This document shows, piece after piece, positions 11,120 through 19,731 of a stretch of DNA of 64,000 nt. The position numbers and the translations under genes are program-made. The stretch's first letter is position 1; each line of letters starts with the position of its first letter. Source of the stretch: Tardiphaga alba (GTDB taxonomy: Bacteria; Pseudomonadota; Alphaproteobacteria; Rhizobiales; Xanthobacteraceae); assembly GCF_018279705.1 (NCBI RefSeq), contig NZ_CP036498.1, positions 3,489,001 to 3,553,000 on the forward strand. Direction: 5' to 3'. A model generated the notes under the pieces. The model was not told the origin of the DNA. It searched no databases and saw only the letters and a program-made list of their open reading frames with translations.

Positions 11120-13165
11120 TTACTCCGCCGCCGTCAGCAACTGGCCCGAGGCCAGGCGGGAGCATTCCGCCATGACGGCTGACGCACGCGCGATCGGGTT
11201 GGTGAGGTAGAAATCCTCGACCGGGCTCTTGAACGGCGCCTTATCGACGGTGCCGCCCTTCCCTGCGAGGGTCTTGATGCCGGCGGCATCGCCGGCTTCG
11301 ATCTGGTCGAGACGCATCAGATGCGGCGCCTGCTTGAAGATCGCCTGACGCAGCTGCGCCAGCGAGTCGAAAGGCAGCTTCTTGCCGAGCACGTCGGACA
11401 GCGCGCGGATGATCGCCCAGTCCTCACGGGCATCGCCCGGCGGGAACGAGGCGCGCTCCGCCATCTGCACGCGGCCTTCGGTGTTCACGAACAGCCCGGA
11501 CTTCTCGGTATAGGCCGCGCCCGGCAAGATCACGTCGGCGCGGTGAGCGCCGCGGTCGCCATGAGTGCCGATGTAAACGACGAAAGCGCCCGGAGCGATT
11601 TCGACATCATCGGCGCCGAGCGAGAACAGGACGTCAGCGCCTTCAGCTATGTTGCCGCCAGCAAAACCGATATCCAGCGCACCGACGGTGGACGCCGCCG
11701 AATGCAGCACCGCAAAGCCGTTCCAGCCGTCCTTGATGGCGCCGATGTCGGAAGCGAGCTTGGCGGCCTGCGCCAGCACGGCAGCGCCGTCCGCACGCGA
11801 GGTCGCGCCTGCGCCGACCAGCACGATCGGATTCTTGGCGTTCTTGAGAACATCAGCAAACGAGTGCTTGCCACTGATCACATCGGTCAGCGTATCGGTG
11901 CCGGCGCCGAGATGCTCGTAGCGATAGGTCAGATCGGCCTTCTCGCCGATCAGGCCGATCTTGAGGTTACCGCCGCGCCAGGCTTTGCGGATGCGGGCGT
12001 TGAGCACGGCCGCTTCCTTGCGTGGATTGGCGCCGACGATCAGCAGCGCATCCGCCTGCTCGATGCCCGCGATGGTCGGGTTGAAGATGTAGGACGCACG
12101 GCCCGCGCCCACGTCGAATGCGGCAGTGCTGGTCGTCGCGACATTGCTGGAGCCCATGGAGGCCAGCAGCGCCTTGATGGCGAACATCTCTTCGACCGCA
12201 GCAAGATCGCCGGCGATAGCACCGACCTTGTTGCCGGCCGCCGACACCTTGGCAGCGATGGCGCCGAAAGCTTCGGTCCAGGTCGCGGCGCGCAGCTTGC
12301 CGTTGTCGCGAATATACGGACGATCAAGGCGCTGGGTGCGCAGGCCGTCAACGACGTGACGGGTCTTGTCCGAAATCCACTCCTCGTTCACCGCCTCATT
12401 GACGCGCGGCAGGATGCGCATCACTTCGCGGCCACGGGTATCGACGCGGATGGCCGAACCGACCGCATCCATCACGTCGATGGATTGGGTCTTGCCGAGC
12501 TCCCACGGACGGGCCGCGAATGCATAGGGCTTCGAGGTCAGCGCACCGACCGGGCAGATATCGACGAGATTGCCCTGCAGTTCCGAGGTCAGCGCGGTTT
12601 CGAGGAAGGAGGTGATCTCCATGTCCTCGCCGCGACCGATGGCGCCCATTTCCGGCGCGCCGGCGACTTCCGCAGCGAAGCGGACGCAGCGCGTGCACTG
12701 GATGCAGCGGGTCATCGAGGTCTTCACGAGGGCGCCGAGATACTTGTCCTCGACGGCGCGCTTGTTCTCGGCGAAGCGGCTGGTGTCGACACCATAGCCC
12801 ATCGCCTGGTCCTGCAGATCGCACTCACCGCCCTGATCGCAGATCGGGCAATCCAGCGGGTGGTTGATGAGCAGAAACTCCATCACGCCTTCGCGGGCCT
12901 TCTTGACCATCGGCGAACGCGTGGAGATTTCCGGCGGCTCGCCATTCGGGCCCGGACGGCAATCGCGCACGCCCCAGGCGCAGCTCGCGACCGGCTTCGG
13001 TCCGCCCTTCACCTCGACCAGACACATGCGGCAGTTGCCGGCGATCGAGAGGCGTTCGTGATAGCAGAAGCGCGGAATTTCGGCGCCAGCGGCTTCGCAC
13101 GCCTGCAACAGCGTGTATTCCGCGGGGACATCGATCTCTTTGCCGTCGACGATCAGTTTAGTCAT
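11120..13165 (-). CDS. nuoG: NADH-quinone oxidoreductase subunit G
   Basis: 681 residues. The N-terminal 2Fe-2S motif [19 protein letters not shown] is followed by the His-Cys cluster motif [17 protein letters not shown] and the 4Fe-4S motif [11 protein letters not shown] molybdopterin-oxidoreductase-like domain follows, as is normal for this subunit. It belongs to the NADH-oxidising peripheral arm in the cytoplasm. It starts 10 bases after nuoF. The order F-G-H-I is canonical. Confidence 0.96.
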
Positions 13166-13175
13166 TGTCGTTGCC

Positions 13176-14501
13176 CTACTCCGCCGCGACCAGATGCGCG
13201 GGATCGAGGATGCCCTGATCGTCGAGCGAAGCCTTGCGGCTGAACTCTTCGATGCGGCGTTCGATCTCCGGGCGGAAGGCGCGGATCAGGCCCTGCACCG
13301 GCCACGCGGCGGCATCGCCGAGTGCGCAGATGGTGTGGCCTTCAACCTGTTTCGTCACTTCGAGCAGCATGTCGATTTCGCGCTTGTGGGCGCGGCCCTC
13401 GACCATGCGGGTCAGCACGCGCCACATCCAGCCGGTGCCTTCGCGGCACGGCGTGCACTGGCCGCAGCTCTCATGCTTGAAGAAGTAGCTGATGCGGGCA
13501 ATCGCGGCGACCACGTCGGTGGACTTGTCCATGACAATGACGCCGGCGGTGCCGAACGAGGATTTCACGGCACGGGTGCCGTCGAAATCCATGATGAGTT
13601 CTTCGCAATCCGCAGCCGGGATCATCGGGCACGATGCGCCGCCCGGGATGATCGCAAGCAGATTGTCCCAGCCGCCGCGAATGCCGCCGCCATGCTTCTC
13701 GATCAGCTCGCGGAACGGGATGCTCATGGCGTCTTCGACGACGCAGGGCGTGTTGACGTGACCGGAGATGCCGTAAAGCTTGGTGCCGACATTGTTCGGA
13801 CGGCCGATGCCGGCGAACCACGACGCGCCACGACGCAGGATGTCCGGCGCAACCGCGATGGACTCTACATTGTTCACGGTGGTCGGGCAGCCATAGAGAC
13901 CGACATTGGCCGGGAATGGCGGCTTCAGCCGCGGCTGGCCCTTCTTGCCTTCGAGGCTTTCGAGCAGCGCGGTTTCTTCACCGCAGATATAGGCGCCGGC
14001 GCCGTGGGCGACATAGAGGTCGAACGGCCAGCCATGGATGTTGTTCTTGCCGATCAGATTGGCGTCATAGGCCTGATCGATCGCGGCCTGCAGGCGCTCG
14101 CGCTCACGGATGAATTCGCCGCGCACATAGATGTAGCAGGCATTGGCGCCCATCGCGAAAGACGCGATCAGGCAGCCCTCGACCAGCGTATGCGGGTCGT
14201 GGCGCATGATCTCGCGGTCTTTACAGGTGCCGGGCTCGGACTCGTCGGCATTCACGACGAGATAGCTCGGACGACCGTCCTTGCTCTCCTTCGGCATGAA
14301 GGACCACTTCATGCCGGTCGGGAAGCCGGCGCCGCCGCGGCCGCGCAGGCCCGACGCCTTCATCTCGTTGATGATCCAGTCGCGGCCCTTGTCGATGATG
14401 GTCTTGGTACCATCCCAACCGCCACGGCGGCGTGCGCCATCGAGACCCCAGTCTTCGAGGCCGTACAGATTGCGGAAGATGCGATCCTTGTCGTCGAGCA
14501 T
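13176..14501 (-). CDS. nuoF: NADH-quinone oxidoreductase subunit F
   Basis: 441 residues. The FMN/NADH site is visible as [17 protein letters not shown] and [17 protein letters not shown], and the N3 4Fe-4S motif is [12 protein letters not shown]. The subunit binds NADH and FMN and starts electron transfer. It follows the small membrane ORF (stop at 14513) after 11 bases. Length is as expected for alphaproteobacteria. Confidence 0.97.
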
Positions 14502-14512
14502 GGCTTCCTCGA

Positions 14513-14677
14513 TCAGCGATTGGTTTGCTTGAAGGCGATCACCGCGGCGCCAAGGCCGAAGGCCATCGCCCAGATCAAGCTCGATTCAAACGTGGACTGC
14601 AGGACGAAGCGCTGCAGAACGAACATGAATGTCGCCGCAGCTGCGGTATGCAGCAACATGTACAGCCACTTGTTCAT
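14513..14677 (-). CDS. Small membrane protein inside the nuo operon
   Basis: A 54-residue frame between nuoE and nuoF, beginning [18 protein letters not shown] and ending [11 protein letters not shown]. It has two hydrophobic segments (about 5-21 and 28-46), so a small two-helix membrane protein is likely. ATG 14677 is preceded by a GGGGGA ribosome binding site about 7 bases upstream. An alternative ATG at 14728 overlaps the nuoE stop (ATGA) and would add a basic 17-residue leader. It is not a known complex I subunit; an accessory or assembly role is only inference from its position. Confidence 0.65.
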
Positions 14678-14724
14678 GGCATCGTCCCCCGACTTCAATG
14701 CAATGGCTTTTGCGCGCGCCCGCT

Positions 14725-15513
14725 TCATTTGCCCGGATCCTTCGGAGCGCCGCCCTTCGGCGGATTGTCCTTGGTCGCATCAGCAGCCGGAGCCTTCGGC
14801 GCCGGACGTTCCTGCGCATTGGCGGCTTCTGTCTGCTTCTTCGGCTCGGCATCGGCGAGCGCCGGCTCCTTCGGCGGAGCATCGAACTGTTTTGTGTAGT
14901 TCGCAGACGTATCCTTCAGCACGCGCGCACCACCTTCCGGTGCTGCATGCTGACGGTCGATCTGCGGACCCGGCTTCGGCGGCGTTCCCGCAGCAAAACC
15001 GTCGATCAGCTTGTTCATGCTGTCCTTGGTCAGGTCCTCATAGGTATCGGACCAGATCATCACCATCGGTGCATTCACACAGGCGCCGAGGCACTCGACC
15101 TCTTCCCACGAGAAATCGCCGTCTGCCGACACATGGTGGGGATCGTGATGGATGCGATGCTGGCAGACATCGATGAGATCGCCGGCGCCGCGCAGCATGC
15201 ACGGCGTGGTGCCGCACACCTGAATGTGAGCTTTCTTGCCGACCGGCTGCAGCTGGAACATCGTGTAGAAGGTCGCGACCTCCATCACGCGGATATAGGG
15301 CATCTCCAGCATGTCAGCGACGTAACGGATGGCCGCTTCCGATACCCAGCCGGCATGCTGTTCCTGCGCGCGCCACAGGATCGAGATCACCGCGGAAGCC
15401 TGACGGCCCGGCGGAAACTTCTCGATCTGCTTCTTCGCCCACGCCAGGTTCTCGGGCGTGAAGTCGAACGATGCGGGCTGCTGTTCTTTCGGGGCCAGAC
15501 GGCGGACAGACAT
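14725..15513 (-). CDS. nuoE: NADH-quinone oxidoreductase subunit E
   Basis: 262 residues. The thioredoxin-like 2Fe-2S domain occupies residues 1 to about 185, with the cysteine pairs in [13 protein letters not shown] and [11 protein letters not shown] binding cluster N1a. After residue 190 there is a low-complexity tail rich in Pro, Ala and Lys (for example [20 protein letters not shown]) that is not part of the enzyme fold and is probably disordered. It is separated from the FkbM-type gene by 11 bases. Confidence 0.95.
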
Positions 15514-15524
15514 GGTGGTTACTC

Positions 15525-16490
15525 TCAGTGAGCGCGGCGGGCCGCGCTCGCATTCAGGCTGTTGAAGCGATCGAGCCAGAACGCACTGGAGGTGCCGAAC
15601 ACATTGTAGCCAACGTGGGTGGACACCTTGATGCGATCGAGAATCGACAACTCGGTCACGGTTTCGAAGCGGTTGGTTGAGGGATCATGCACGATCAGCG
15701 ACAGCGGTGTTTGATCCAGAATGTAGCGCGAGACCGTATGGGCGGGGTCATTGCCGTGCTCTTCGCACATGATGACCGAGTCGCCCTGCAGCAAACGCGT
15801 GCCGCCCTTGATGGCCTCGATCTCGACGCCTTCGACGTCGAGCTTGATGAGATATTTTCCGCTCATGGACAGCTTGCCGTCGTCGAGCAGGTTGTCGAGT
15901 GCGATGACCGGCACTTCCTCGCCGGCGCTCTGGTCGCCCGCGATGCTGAAGGCCTCATGCTTGGTGCCCGACAGGCGCGCGGTGCCGCGCACGGAGCCGA
16001 TCGCGCATTTGATGACCTCGAAACGATCGCGATTGATTTTGGCGTTGTTGGCCAGCTTCGGAAAATTCTCGCCCGAAGGCTCGATGGCAATCGCCTTGTG
16101 CGAGCCGAACGGCGCGCTCGAGACCAGCACCGACCAGTAGCCGTAATTCGCACCGCAATCGAGCAGCGTGTAATCGACATCGACCGAGTTCTTGAACAGC
16201 AGTTCAAGCTCGTCTTCGTAAGAAAAGCTGCGGTCGAGCAGTTTGCTCCAGTAACCGTCACCGAACGGGAATGCGAACAGCGCATCCGCATTCAGCTTCA
16301 CCACCAGATTGCGCGCCGGCAGCACCGTCGCGCGCATCAGATTGGCGCACATATTGTAGCCGCGATGCGAGAACGACGCCGACAGTCTTGCCCCCAAGGC
16401 CAGCACGCACGCCATCGTGCGCTCCCAGAGGTTTACCCCCTGGAGCGCGCCCGATGCGCGGTCAAACTGGATGGGAGACGTCAGTGTCAC
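15525..16490 (-). CDS. FkbM family SAM-dependent methyltransferase, embedded in the nuo operon
   Basis: 321 residues. The SAM-binding motif I is [15 protein letters not shown] (about 106-120), and the FkbM signatures [18 protein letters not shown] and VIMCEEHG follow. FkbM-type enzymes are usually O-methyltransferases acting on sugars or polyketides; the substrate here is unknown. The start overlaps the nuoD stop by four bases (ATGA), and nuoE follows after 11 bases, so it must be co-translated with complex I. This suggests, but does not prove, a role in complex I modification or assembly. No frame disruption is visible. Confidence 0.85.
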
Positions 16491-17680
16491 CGATCGACCT
16501 CACCGAACACGATATCGATGGAGCCCAGGATCGCCGAGACGTCGGCCAGCTGGTGGCCGCGGCACAGGAAGTCCATCGCCTGCAGATGTGCAAAGCCCGG
16601 CGCGCGGATCTTGCACTTGTATGGCTTGTTGCTGCCGTCCGAAACAAGATACACGCCGAACTCGCCCTTCGGCGCTTCCACGGCGGCATAGACCTCGCCC
16701 TCAGGCACGTGAACGCCTTCGGTGTAGAGCTTGAAGTGATGGATCAGCGCTTCCATCGAGCGCTTCATCTCGGCACGACGCGGCGGCGAAATCTTGTGGT
16801 CATCGACGACCACAGGTCCCTGCCCGTCAGCTGCGCGCATCTTGGCGATGCACTGCTTCATGATCTTGGTTGACTGACGCATCTCTTCGACGCGGATACA
16901 GTAACGATCGTAGCAGTCGCCGTTCTTGCCGATTGGAATGTCGAATTCCATCTCGTCATAGCACTCGTAGGGCTGCGCCTTGCGCAGATCCCACGACGCG
17001 CCTGAACCGCGCACCATGACGCCCGAAAAGCCCCACTTCCAGGCGTCTTCCAGCTTCACGACACCGATATCGACATTGCGCTGTTTGAAAATGCGGTTGT
17101 TGGTGAGCAGCGTCTCGAGATCGTCGAGTACCTGCGGGAACGCATCGCACCAGGCGTCGATGTCGTTAATCAGCGCGGGCGGCAGGTCCTGATGGACACC
17201 GCCGACACGGAAGAATGCGGCGTGCATGCGCGAGCCCGAGGCGCGCTCATAGAACACCATCAGCTTTTCGCGCTCTTCAAAGCCCCACAGCGGCGGGGTG
17301 AGCGCGCCGACGTCCATCGCCTGCGTGGTGACGTTGAGCAGATGCGACAGGATGCGGCCGATTTCCGAATAAAGCACGCGGATCAGCTGGCCGCGACGCG
17401 GCACGGTGATGCCGAGCAGCTTTTCAGCGGCGAGACAGAAGGCATGCTCCTGATTCATCGGCGCGACGTAATCGAGGCGATCGAAATACGGGATCGCCTG
17501 CATGTAGGTCTTCTGCTCGATCAGCTTCTCGGTGCCGCGATGAAGCAGGCCGATATGCGGATCGACGCGCTCGACGACTTCGCCGTCGAGCTCCAGAACC
17601 AGACGGAGCACACCGTGCGCGGCCGGATGCTGCGGGCCAAAGTTGATCGTAAAATTACGGACGCCGGGTTGATCGTTCAT
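16487..17680 (-). CDS. nuoD: NADH-quinone oxidoreductase subunit D
   Basis: 397 residues of the 49-kDa subunit. It begins [23 protein letters not shown], which contains the conserved HPAAHG quinone-site loop, and has the ending typical of the family (DIVFGEVDR). It forms the quinone-binding pocket with NuoB. ATG 17680 shares its first base with the nuoC stop (TGATG); a GTG one codon upstream is possible but less likely. The 3' end overlaps the methyltransferase gene by four bases. Confidence 0.96.
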
Positions 17681-18291
17681 CACTTAACCCCTGCCTTCTC
17701 GTCACCGGGCAGCGTCGGATAGTCGGCGCCTTCCCATGGCGACAGGAAGTCGAACTTGCGGAATTCCTGGTTGAGCCGAACCGGCTCATAGATCACGCGC
17801 TTCTCCTGATCGTCGTAGCGAACCTCTACGAAACCGGTGAGCGGGAAATCCTTGCGCAGCGGATGGCCGTCAAAGCCGTAATCCGTCAGCAAACGGCGCA
17901 TGTCGGGATGGCCGACGAAGATCACGCCATAGAGGTCGTAGGCTTCGCGCTCGAACCAGTCGGCGCCCGGAAACACGTCGATGATCGACGGCACCTGGGT
18001 GGTCTCGGACGCCATCGCCTTGACGCGGATGCGCGTATTCAGGAACGGCGACATCAGGTGATAGACGACGTCGAAACGCTTCTCGCGGCCGGGATAGTCG
18101 ACTGCGGTCGCATCGGTGAAATTGACGAAACGGCAGCCGGGATCATCACGCAGGAAGCGCATGACCTCGACGATCTTCGACGTTTCCGCAACGATCGTCA
18201 GCTGGCCGAAAGCAACCGAATGCGCGAGAGCGGCACCGGGAAGAGCGCCGACAATCGTCTGACCCAGTGTGTCGAGCCTCACATCGTCCAT
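17680..18291 (-). CDS. nuoC: NADH-quinone oxidoreductase subunit C
   Basis: 203 residues of the 30-kDa subunit. The signature ERXXYDLXGXXFXGHPDXRR is present as [20 protein letters not shown], followed by [17 protein letters not shown]. It is a peripheral-arm subunit next to NuoD, and here the two are separate genes rather than the fused NuoCD of enterobacteria. It lies 40 bases after nuoB. Confidence 0.96.
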
Positions 18292-18331
18292 GACATAGCC
18301 TTAAAGGTTCGCAGTCTTAGCGTTCGCAAGC

Positions 18332-18913
18332 TTACCGTTCGATCGTTCCGATGCGCCGGATCTTCTTCTGCAGCAGCAGCACGCCGTAAAGCAGCGCTTC
18401 GGCAGTGGGCGGGCAGCCCGGCACATAGATGTCGATCGGCACGATGCGGTCGCAGCCGCGCACCACTGAATAGGAATAGTGGTAGTAGCCACCGCCATTG
18501 GCGCATGATCCCATCGAGATCACATAGCGAGGCTCCGGCATTTGGTCATAGACCTTGCGCAGCGCCGGCGCCATCTTGTTGGTAAGCGTGCCAGCGACGA
18601 TCATCACGTCGGACTGGCGCGGCGACGCGCGCGGCGCGAAGCCGAAGCGCTCGACGTCGTAACGCGGCATCGACACCTGCATCATCTCGACCGCACAGCA
18701 GGCAAGACCGAAGGTCATCCACATCAGCGAACCGGTGCGCGCCCAGGTGATCAGATCGTCAGCCGCAGCGACGAAGAATCCCTTGTCCGACAGCTCGGCA
18801 TTGACTTCGAGGAAATACGGATCGTTCGCGCCGACCGGCTTGCCGGTAGACGGATCGAGAATGCCGCGCGGCGCCTGAGCGATCGCGGGAGCAGTTGCGG
18901 GGCTCAATCCCAT
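18332..18913 (-). CDS. nuoB: NADH-quinone oxidoreductase subunit B
   Basis: 193 residues. The N2 4Fe-4S ligands are visible in [20 protein letters not shown] and [11 protein letters not shown]. This cluster passes electrons to quinone. ATG 18913 ([13 protein letters not shown]) overlaps the end of nuoA (ATGGGATTGA) and has a purine-rich upstream region; an earlier in-frame ATG at 18934 would reach 31 bases into nuoA and adds MEERRAR. The N-terminal ~35 residues are Ala/Pro-rich and probably flexible. Confidence 0.95.
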
Positions 18914-19269
18914 TCGAGCGCGCCTTTCTTCCATTCATAGGCGAAGCCGACGGTGAGCACGCCGAGAAACACGATCATCGACCAGAAGCCGGCAATGCCT
19001 ACCTTGCCGAAGGCCACTGCCCACGGAAACAGGAAGGCGACTTCAAGGTCGAAAATGATGAAGAGGATCGCCACCAGATAGAAGCGCACATCGAACTTCA
19101 TGCGGGCATCGTCAAAAGCGTTGAATCCGCATTCATATGCGGACAGCTTTTCCGGATCCGGGTTCTGATAAGCGACAAGGAATGGCGCGATCAGCAACGC
19201 CAACCCGATGACGGAAGCGATGCCGATGAAGACCACAAGAGGAAGATAATTCTGCAAGATGCCGTTCAT
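18904..19269 (-). CDS. nuoA: NADH-quinone oxidoreductase subunit A, first gene of the operon
   Basis: 121 residues with three transmembrane helices. The motif [41 protein letters not shown] is diagnostic. It is the membrane subunit at the junction of the two arms. The ATG at 19269 follows an AGGGAT ribosome binding site. As the first nuo gene it must have the operon promoter upstream, within 19270-19700, but I could not place a clear -10/-35 pair. Confidence 0.96.
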
Positions 19270-19731
19270 CGGCGATCCCTAACCCCATGGCCTGGAAACT
19301 GCCACAGATTCGAACATTGGAATGGTTCTGAGCCTTAGCGCAGCGCAACAAGCCATGCAACACCGGGGATGTTGACAGTTTTCAGCCCCTGCCATGCGCG
19401 ATACGCCTTCAAGCTAGGCAACTAGCTCTGCCGCCAACACCGCGCCTCCAGCCCTCGCATGCCAAACTTGCGACAGGGTTTCCCGGAGGTTGAAATTGCG
19501 GCGCGCTATGGCTGCGAGCATCTGCATCGGGGGAGCCAGCCAAACCGTTATAGCCTCAACCGGCAACGTATGGGTGTACCGCCCGATTTCACAGGGTTTT
19601 CAGCCGCGGGCAAGTGCGGTGTTGCTGCAATGCGCCATCGAAAAAATCATTCTCCTGCCGAACCAAATCTCAGGAAATCCGTATCCTGAGAGCCAGCGCT
19701 CTGCTGGCCTTTTCAATGACAAGAGGTTCCC
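19270..19731. other. Intergenic region between divergent nuoA and the Met-rich gene
   Basis: About 460 bases lie between divergent genes, so the region should hold the nuo promoter and the promoter of the Met-rich gene. A TTGACA hexamer occurs on the plus strand at about 19373, but I see no convincing -10 element at the right spacing. Short open frames here lack ribosome binding sites and conserved sequence, so I do not call genes. The last bases before 19732 carry GAGG as the ribosome binding site of the next gene. Confidence 0.4.

Follow-up and report, generated by a model that had tools for sequence, protein, structure and literature searches.

In the window analysed here (the whole stretch of 64,000 nucleotides, positions 3,489,001 to 3,553,000 of the forward strand of contig NZ_CP036498.1, assembly GCF_018279705.1, of Tardiphaga alba, family Xanthobacteraceae, order Rhizobiales), a gene for an FkbM-type methyltransferase dependent on S-adenosylmethionine (SAM), hereafter MT, lies between nuoD and nuoE in the operon of respiratory complex I (nuo). 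We consider that MT encodes a working enzyme, long resident in nuo in a minority of lineages, which would O-methylate a hydroxyl outside complex I, the likeliest reading, though one that we regard as evenly balanced between right and wrong. According to it, an FkbM-type gene for a Rossmann-fold SAM methyltransferase would have been inserted between nuoD and nuoE at an early stage of the order's history, and a minority of lineages would have kept it at that place. Within its own family it would be translated from signals at the nuoD end (GAGG in the E-V codons of EVDR, followed by the A/GTGA in which start and stop codons overlap), which would tie its level to that of complex I. The enzyme would act, in the manner of COMT and FkbM, on a hydroxyl of a small molecule, lipid or glycan, and selection would be for this O-methylation activity and not for a needed step in complex I building.

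An earlier note on this DNA had named the 321-residue product an FkbM-type SAM methyltransferase, and both Pfam (PF05050: E=1.1e-13, 52.1 bits, cut-off 22.7) and NCBIfam (TIGR01444 fkbM_fam: 73.9 bits, cut-off 37.7) place it in that family. PF05050 was the sole Pfam match at E<=0.001, and PF02636 (NDUFAF7/MidA) was not found in MT, in agreement with the same note's statement that NDUFAF7 belongs to another family. The SAM-binding motif and the K-x-D-x-E-G core, together with D218, E243 and H245, are invariant across 30 aligned homologues, and the KMDIEG of MT has a counterpart in structure 2py6. From the FkbM family (PF05050, TIGR01444; structure 2py6) MT differs by its location in a respiratory operon and by approximately 100 N-terminal residues beyond the domain match, which are conserved in most of the 30 homologues. 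The AlphaFold2 model (me35128d1209c; mean predicted local distance difference test score, pLDDT, 94.7; predicted template modelling score, pTM, 0.92) resembles several structures, COMT, TrmR and 2py6 included, at VIA-align Z values that lie near one another (COMT highest at 14.3, in near tie with others and at only ~10% identity), and the predicted fold is like that of COMT-like metal-dependent O-methyltransferases. The 50 Foldseek matches listed for the model were assorted Rossmann methyltransferases (TMq <=0.42) that named no substrate, and a PDB sequence search retrieved 2py6 at E=0.13 with the single sequence and 8e-4 with a profile (remaining profile matches E>=0.12). The substrates of known FkbM enzymes are sugars and polyketides, on which a hydroxyl is O-methylated with SAM as the methyl donor. 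We treat the O-methyl chemistry suggested for MT by its likeness to COMT, based on fold and family, as a lead only. Two more proteins encoded by the host genome (a single contig of 5.86 Mb) resemble MT weakly, with 34% and 30% identity to it in the core.

Comparison of nuo operons, the check proposed in the earlier note, found MT conserved in Bradyrhizobium and its kin: nuoD, MT and nuoE follow one another in this order on one strand in 110/110 close-relative loci (94 distinct MT sequences). These derive from a sample of 112 loci (L001-L112) biased to the best matches, in which some genomes were fetched twice, the window itself is included, and two loci (L002 and L003) are distant paralogues from the host genome, excluded from the 110. 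The closest named relatives of MT come from records labelled Tardiphaga, Bradyrhizobium or Bradyrhizobiaceae, and 'Rhodopseudomonas boonkerdii'. Among the own-genus genomes listed, 17 of 18 match MT below 1e-160 (the exception, G206, being an 81%-complete draft), and in a draw of 296 genomes from the family 218 match at E<=0.001, a count swollen by general FkbM proteins. Across the order the gene is patchy (31/397 genomes at E<=1e-20, including 14 from other families), and of these 14, two from one family (L178 and L179) have no nuo gene near the homologue and one (G306) has a nuoD-nuoE junction without MT. Class-wide, outside the order, 4 of 385 genomes match at E<=1e-25 in a search that scored at most five candidates per genome and may have missed some matches; in no case did the fetched stretch contain nuo genes. 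Furthermore, a median dN/dS of 0.12 (Nei-Gojobori, 15 hand-picked pairs) shows purifying selection on MT, with a constraint somewhat looser than that on nuoC and nuoE.

Absences are equally part of the distribution. Thirty genomes of the family, most of them picked for lacking a strong MT match, were examined for nuoD, and among the 28 with a nuoD match the junction is without MT in 19, with MT in 7 and with a remnant in one; in the last (G001) it is cut by a contig end. In the remnant (G043, L161:4691-5311) approximately residues 124-237, the catalytic core, are deleted in frame, and what is left still adjoins nuoD. The earlier note had described canonical nuo operons as lacking such a gene, and a second set of genomes from the family and order agrees with this: among 26 with a nuoD match (27 loci, L203 and L215 not permitting a call), MT was at the junction only in the two known carriers (L189 and L190). 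On a NuoD tree of 50 sequences, with the G043 remnant counted as absent, the presence and absence of MT needs 10 changes, 3 of them forced by well-supported branches. That note had also named absence from close relatives, together with a deletion of no effect, as grounds against a complex I role, and the first of these is borne out only in part, as MT is missing in those 19 genomes of the family, yet is present in nearly all of its own genus, in the Bradyrhizobium loci and in seven other families. MT was accordingly not found to be required for complex I, or to track its genes strictly, among these 28 genomes; a clade-specific or optional complex I factor is a possibility compatible with the absences.

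The 16 sampled copies outside nuo branch within the nuo-linked set when 48 homologues are placed on a tree, with at least four changes of place, and for this reason residence in nuo looks ancestral. We favour descent with losses over recombination through the flanks as the history of MT, the direction of individual moves being put forward conditionally. The copies outside nuo that were aligned retain the invariant residues. Their neighbourhoods were described by protein clusters, with Pfam on sample members (the first ATP-grasp family scoring below its cut-off). Seven of these loci (L153-L159) are copper islands, in which the homologue occurs with a multicopper-oxidase cluster (7/7), OpgC (6/7), CopC/CopD-like proteins (4) and a GNAT cluster (3), and possibly serves envelope modification. 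In five others (L143, L144, L149-L151) it occurs with an ATP-grasp-like protein (5/5), a flavin oxidase-methyltransferase (4) and an ABC exporter (3). Neither the copper islands nor the ATP-grasp loci speak for complex I.

The position of MT in the window, given below with its neighbours, agrees with the coordinates, the 4-base overlap with nuoD and the 11-base gap to nuoE reported in the earlier note, which did not state the strand (minus).

17683..16487, minus strand: nuoD, 398 aa, with the HRGTE motif including R49 (Pfam).
16487..16505, minus strand: nuoD 3' end (C-terminus EVDR-stop), holding a Shine-Dalgarno-like GAGG and the start codon of the next gene (sequence).
16487..16490, minus strand: GTGA, the 4 nt in which the MT start codon overlaps the nuoD stop codon (sequence).
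16490..15525, minus strand: MT, FkbM-family SAM-dependent methyltransferase gene, 321 aa, GTG start, TGA stop (Pfam and NCBIfam).
15514..15524, minus strand: gap of 11 nt from the MT stop to the nuoE start (sequence).
15513..14725, minus strand: nuoE, 262 aa (Pfam).
14513..14677, minus strand: hydrophobic small protein of 54 aa between nuoE and nuoF (tblastn matches in relatives).
13176..14501, minus strand: nuoF, 441 aa (named from its own sequence and place).

The gene order on the minus strand is nuoA-nuoB-nuoC-nuoD-MT-nuoE-(54-aa open reading frame, ORF)-nuoF-nuoG and onward, with Pfam as the basis for MT, nuoD and nuoE and the remaining nuo names assigned from sequence and order. On the plus strand, frame 1 of 15525..16490 contains a stop codon and is not open. 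A scan of 13000-19600 returned no sigma-70-like promoter site, and 9 terminator-like sites against 5.2 expected. The 54-aa protein is a second non-canonical member of the operon, with a tblastn match in 74 of the 80 loci L033-L112 and a Pfam match only below threshold.

This arrangement supports the earlier note's view that MT is translated together with complex I, which we deem likely. The 4-base overlap itself exists and is widespread (A/GTGA at the MT start in 121 of 142 locus entries, nearly all from the own family and some places counted twice); outside the family L177 alone shows it in this count, MT being for the most part separated from nuoD by a small gap there, with a 1-nt overlap, a longer gap or an unclear start in the remaining cases. 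As evidence of a shared role it is weaker than it appears. NuoD ends in EVDR or EIDR in 73/73 sequences, and the Shine-Dalgarno-like motif in the nuoD end is found in 28/31 MT-bearing and 38/42 MT-less ones, as is A/GTGA at the nuoD stop in 21/31 and 29/42. Moreover, MT-less slots hold Uma2 genes (a nuclease family; L139, L140, L212), a DUF559 gene (likewise a nuclease family; L132) and small ORFs lacking a Pfam match (L129, L136), and L210 shows the same gap and stop context as the Uma2 loci. All seven of these loci have ATGA or GTGA at the nuoD stop, and Uma2 and DUF559 inserts, non-subunit genes between nuo genes, share with MT the same overlapping start. Given that overlap and motif lie in a conserved nuoD end and are common to unrelated inserts, we argue that the overlap is a property of nuoD and not a sign of kinship with complex I. 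Yet another junction (L206, genome G296) has a nuoD-nuoE gap of 1334 nt with short ORFs, one of them hydrophobic, and no MT. In the nuoC-nuoD junctions of relatives, gaps of at least 150 nt (mostly 415-550 nt) were observed in 22/68 loci.

Several observations weigh against an MT that acts outside complex I, or against the history proposed for it. Outside the family 11 of the 14 homologues adjoin nuoD (L168-L177 and L180, from seven families; in L171 and L172 with a gap of ~220-270 nt to nuoD and without nuoE as immediate neighbour), and no other nuoD-nuoE insert is as widespread in the sample, Uma2 and DUF559 genes being seen far less widely than MT. The distances of MT correlate with those of NuoD (Mantel r 0.54, 29 taxa, 0/2000 permutations; r 0.47 in a 17-taxon deep set, 0/2000 permutations), a correlation to which groups of closely related taxa contribute. 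A function tied to complex I would equally give the nuoD linkage, the distance correlation and the wide spread, and the copies outside nuo may have acquired a different function. The root of the MT tree is uncertain, since the three outgroup sequences do not fall on one side of a branch and L133 and L135 sit on a long branch. OpgC, which would offer a glucan link, is present in 40/40 genomes, and its co-presence does not discriminate.

The foremost alternative is accordingly that MT is a modification or assembly factor of complex I, methylating NuoD, NuoE, NuoC or another subunit at a site other than that of MidA, and serving a clade-specific tuning of assembly or stability; we hold this to be possible, though rather unlikely. 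It would account for the long-lasting adjacency to nuoD in eight families, its own included, for the correlated distances, for the overlapping start in the own family, and for a purifying selection near that on nuoC and nuoE. Against it stand the many intact nuoD-nuoE junctions without MT and the homologues kept at places other than nuo. Furthermore, no residue strictly tracks MT (a single residue in >=95% of carriers but <=60% of non-carriers) in the columns tested of NuoC (99), NuoD (396), NuoE (203) and NuoF (176), except NuoD residue 2, which adjoins the start; the test is weak, as the loss of a modification may pass without such a mark on the sequence. It compared 29 carriers with 42 non-carriers minus missing sequences, with L133 and L135 omitted and the remnant L125 taken as a non-carrier; NuoB gave no usable column, and NuoA and NuoG-N lay outside its scope. 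Taken together, the absences of MT, the ubiquity of MidA, the nuoD-end signals shared by unrelated inserts and the lack of a tracking site weaken the view that MT modifies complex I.

A second alternative is that MT is a passenger: the nuo junctions of the order would pick up genes, and MT would have spread by recombination via its nuoD and nuoE flanks, with a function unlinked to complex I beyond strong expression. The Uma2, DUF559 and small-ORF genes of the same slot, the long gaps at other nuo junctions (those at nuoC-nuoD, and at least 150 nt at nuoE-nuoF in 17/57 loci) and the patchiness in the order all favour it, yet the correlation of MT with NuoD distances and the near-universal retention of MT in its genus under selection oppose it, and we judge it improbable.

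The earlier note had drawn an analogy with NDUFAF7, which is likewise a SAM methyltransferase tied to the NuoD/NDUFS2 gene product, as MT is by gene position: passages of PMC3829151 describe its methylation of NDUFS2 Arg85, and passages of PMC8042128 report dimethylation of the HRGXE arginine (R49 in the NuoD of the window) in Paracoccus as well, but not in E. coli. This analogy is weakened, and the replacement of NDUFAF7/MidA by MT as the dimethylating enzyme of that arginine, suggested by the adjacency to nuoD and by a split host MidA gene, is hardly credible and was rejected: MidA (PF02636, a family other than that of MT) is a separate gene in 30/30 genomes, whether or not they have MT, and is intact in G169 and G140, which carry MT and belong to the same genus, and HRGTE is present in 183/184 NuoD sequences regardless of MT (the exception, L141, belonging to a second, divergent complex I). 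The host MidA homologue (G000:C1:4670751-4671454, L216) is split into two frames and whole in the relative G169, a condition compatible both with sequencing error and with real loss.

In the partial library consulted, no description of an FkbM gene in nuo was found and no paper contained both 'fkbm' and 'nuod'; none of six terms looked up in PMC12361115 occurred there, and the passages of PMC4287336 on a Bradyrhizobium gel report NuoC and no FkbM protein.

We know of no operon-encoded modifier of bacterial complex I. Should MT methylate the complex a second time, as a clade-specific, operon-encoded modification scattered through the order (of a subunit, or of a bound lipid or quinone-site ligand, away from the MidA site), which we think unlikely, it would to our knowledge be the first such modifier of the bacterial enzyme. 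On the other hand, with MT as a long-resident O-methyltransferase acting outside complex I, the emphasis falls on the nuoD end: as a Shine-Dalgarno-like motif, and in many cases a start codon, is built into it, a 4-nt overlap there is poor evidence of a common role, and the slot may account for the way in which unrelated genes come to be expressed with complex I.
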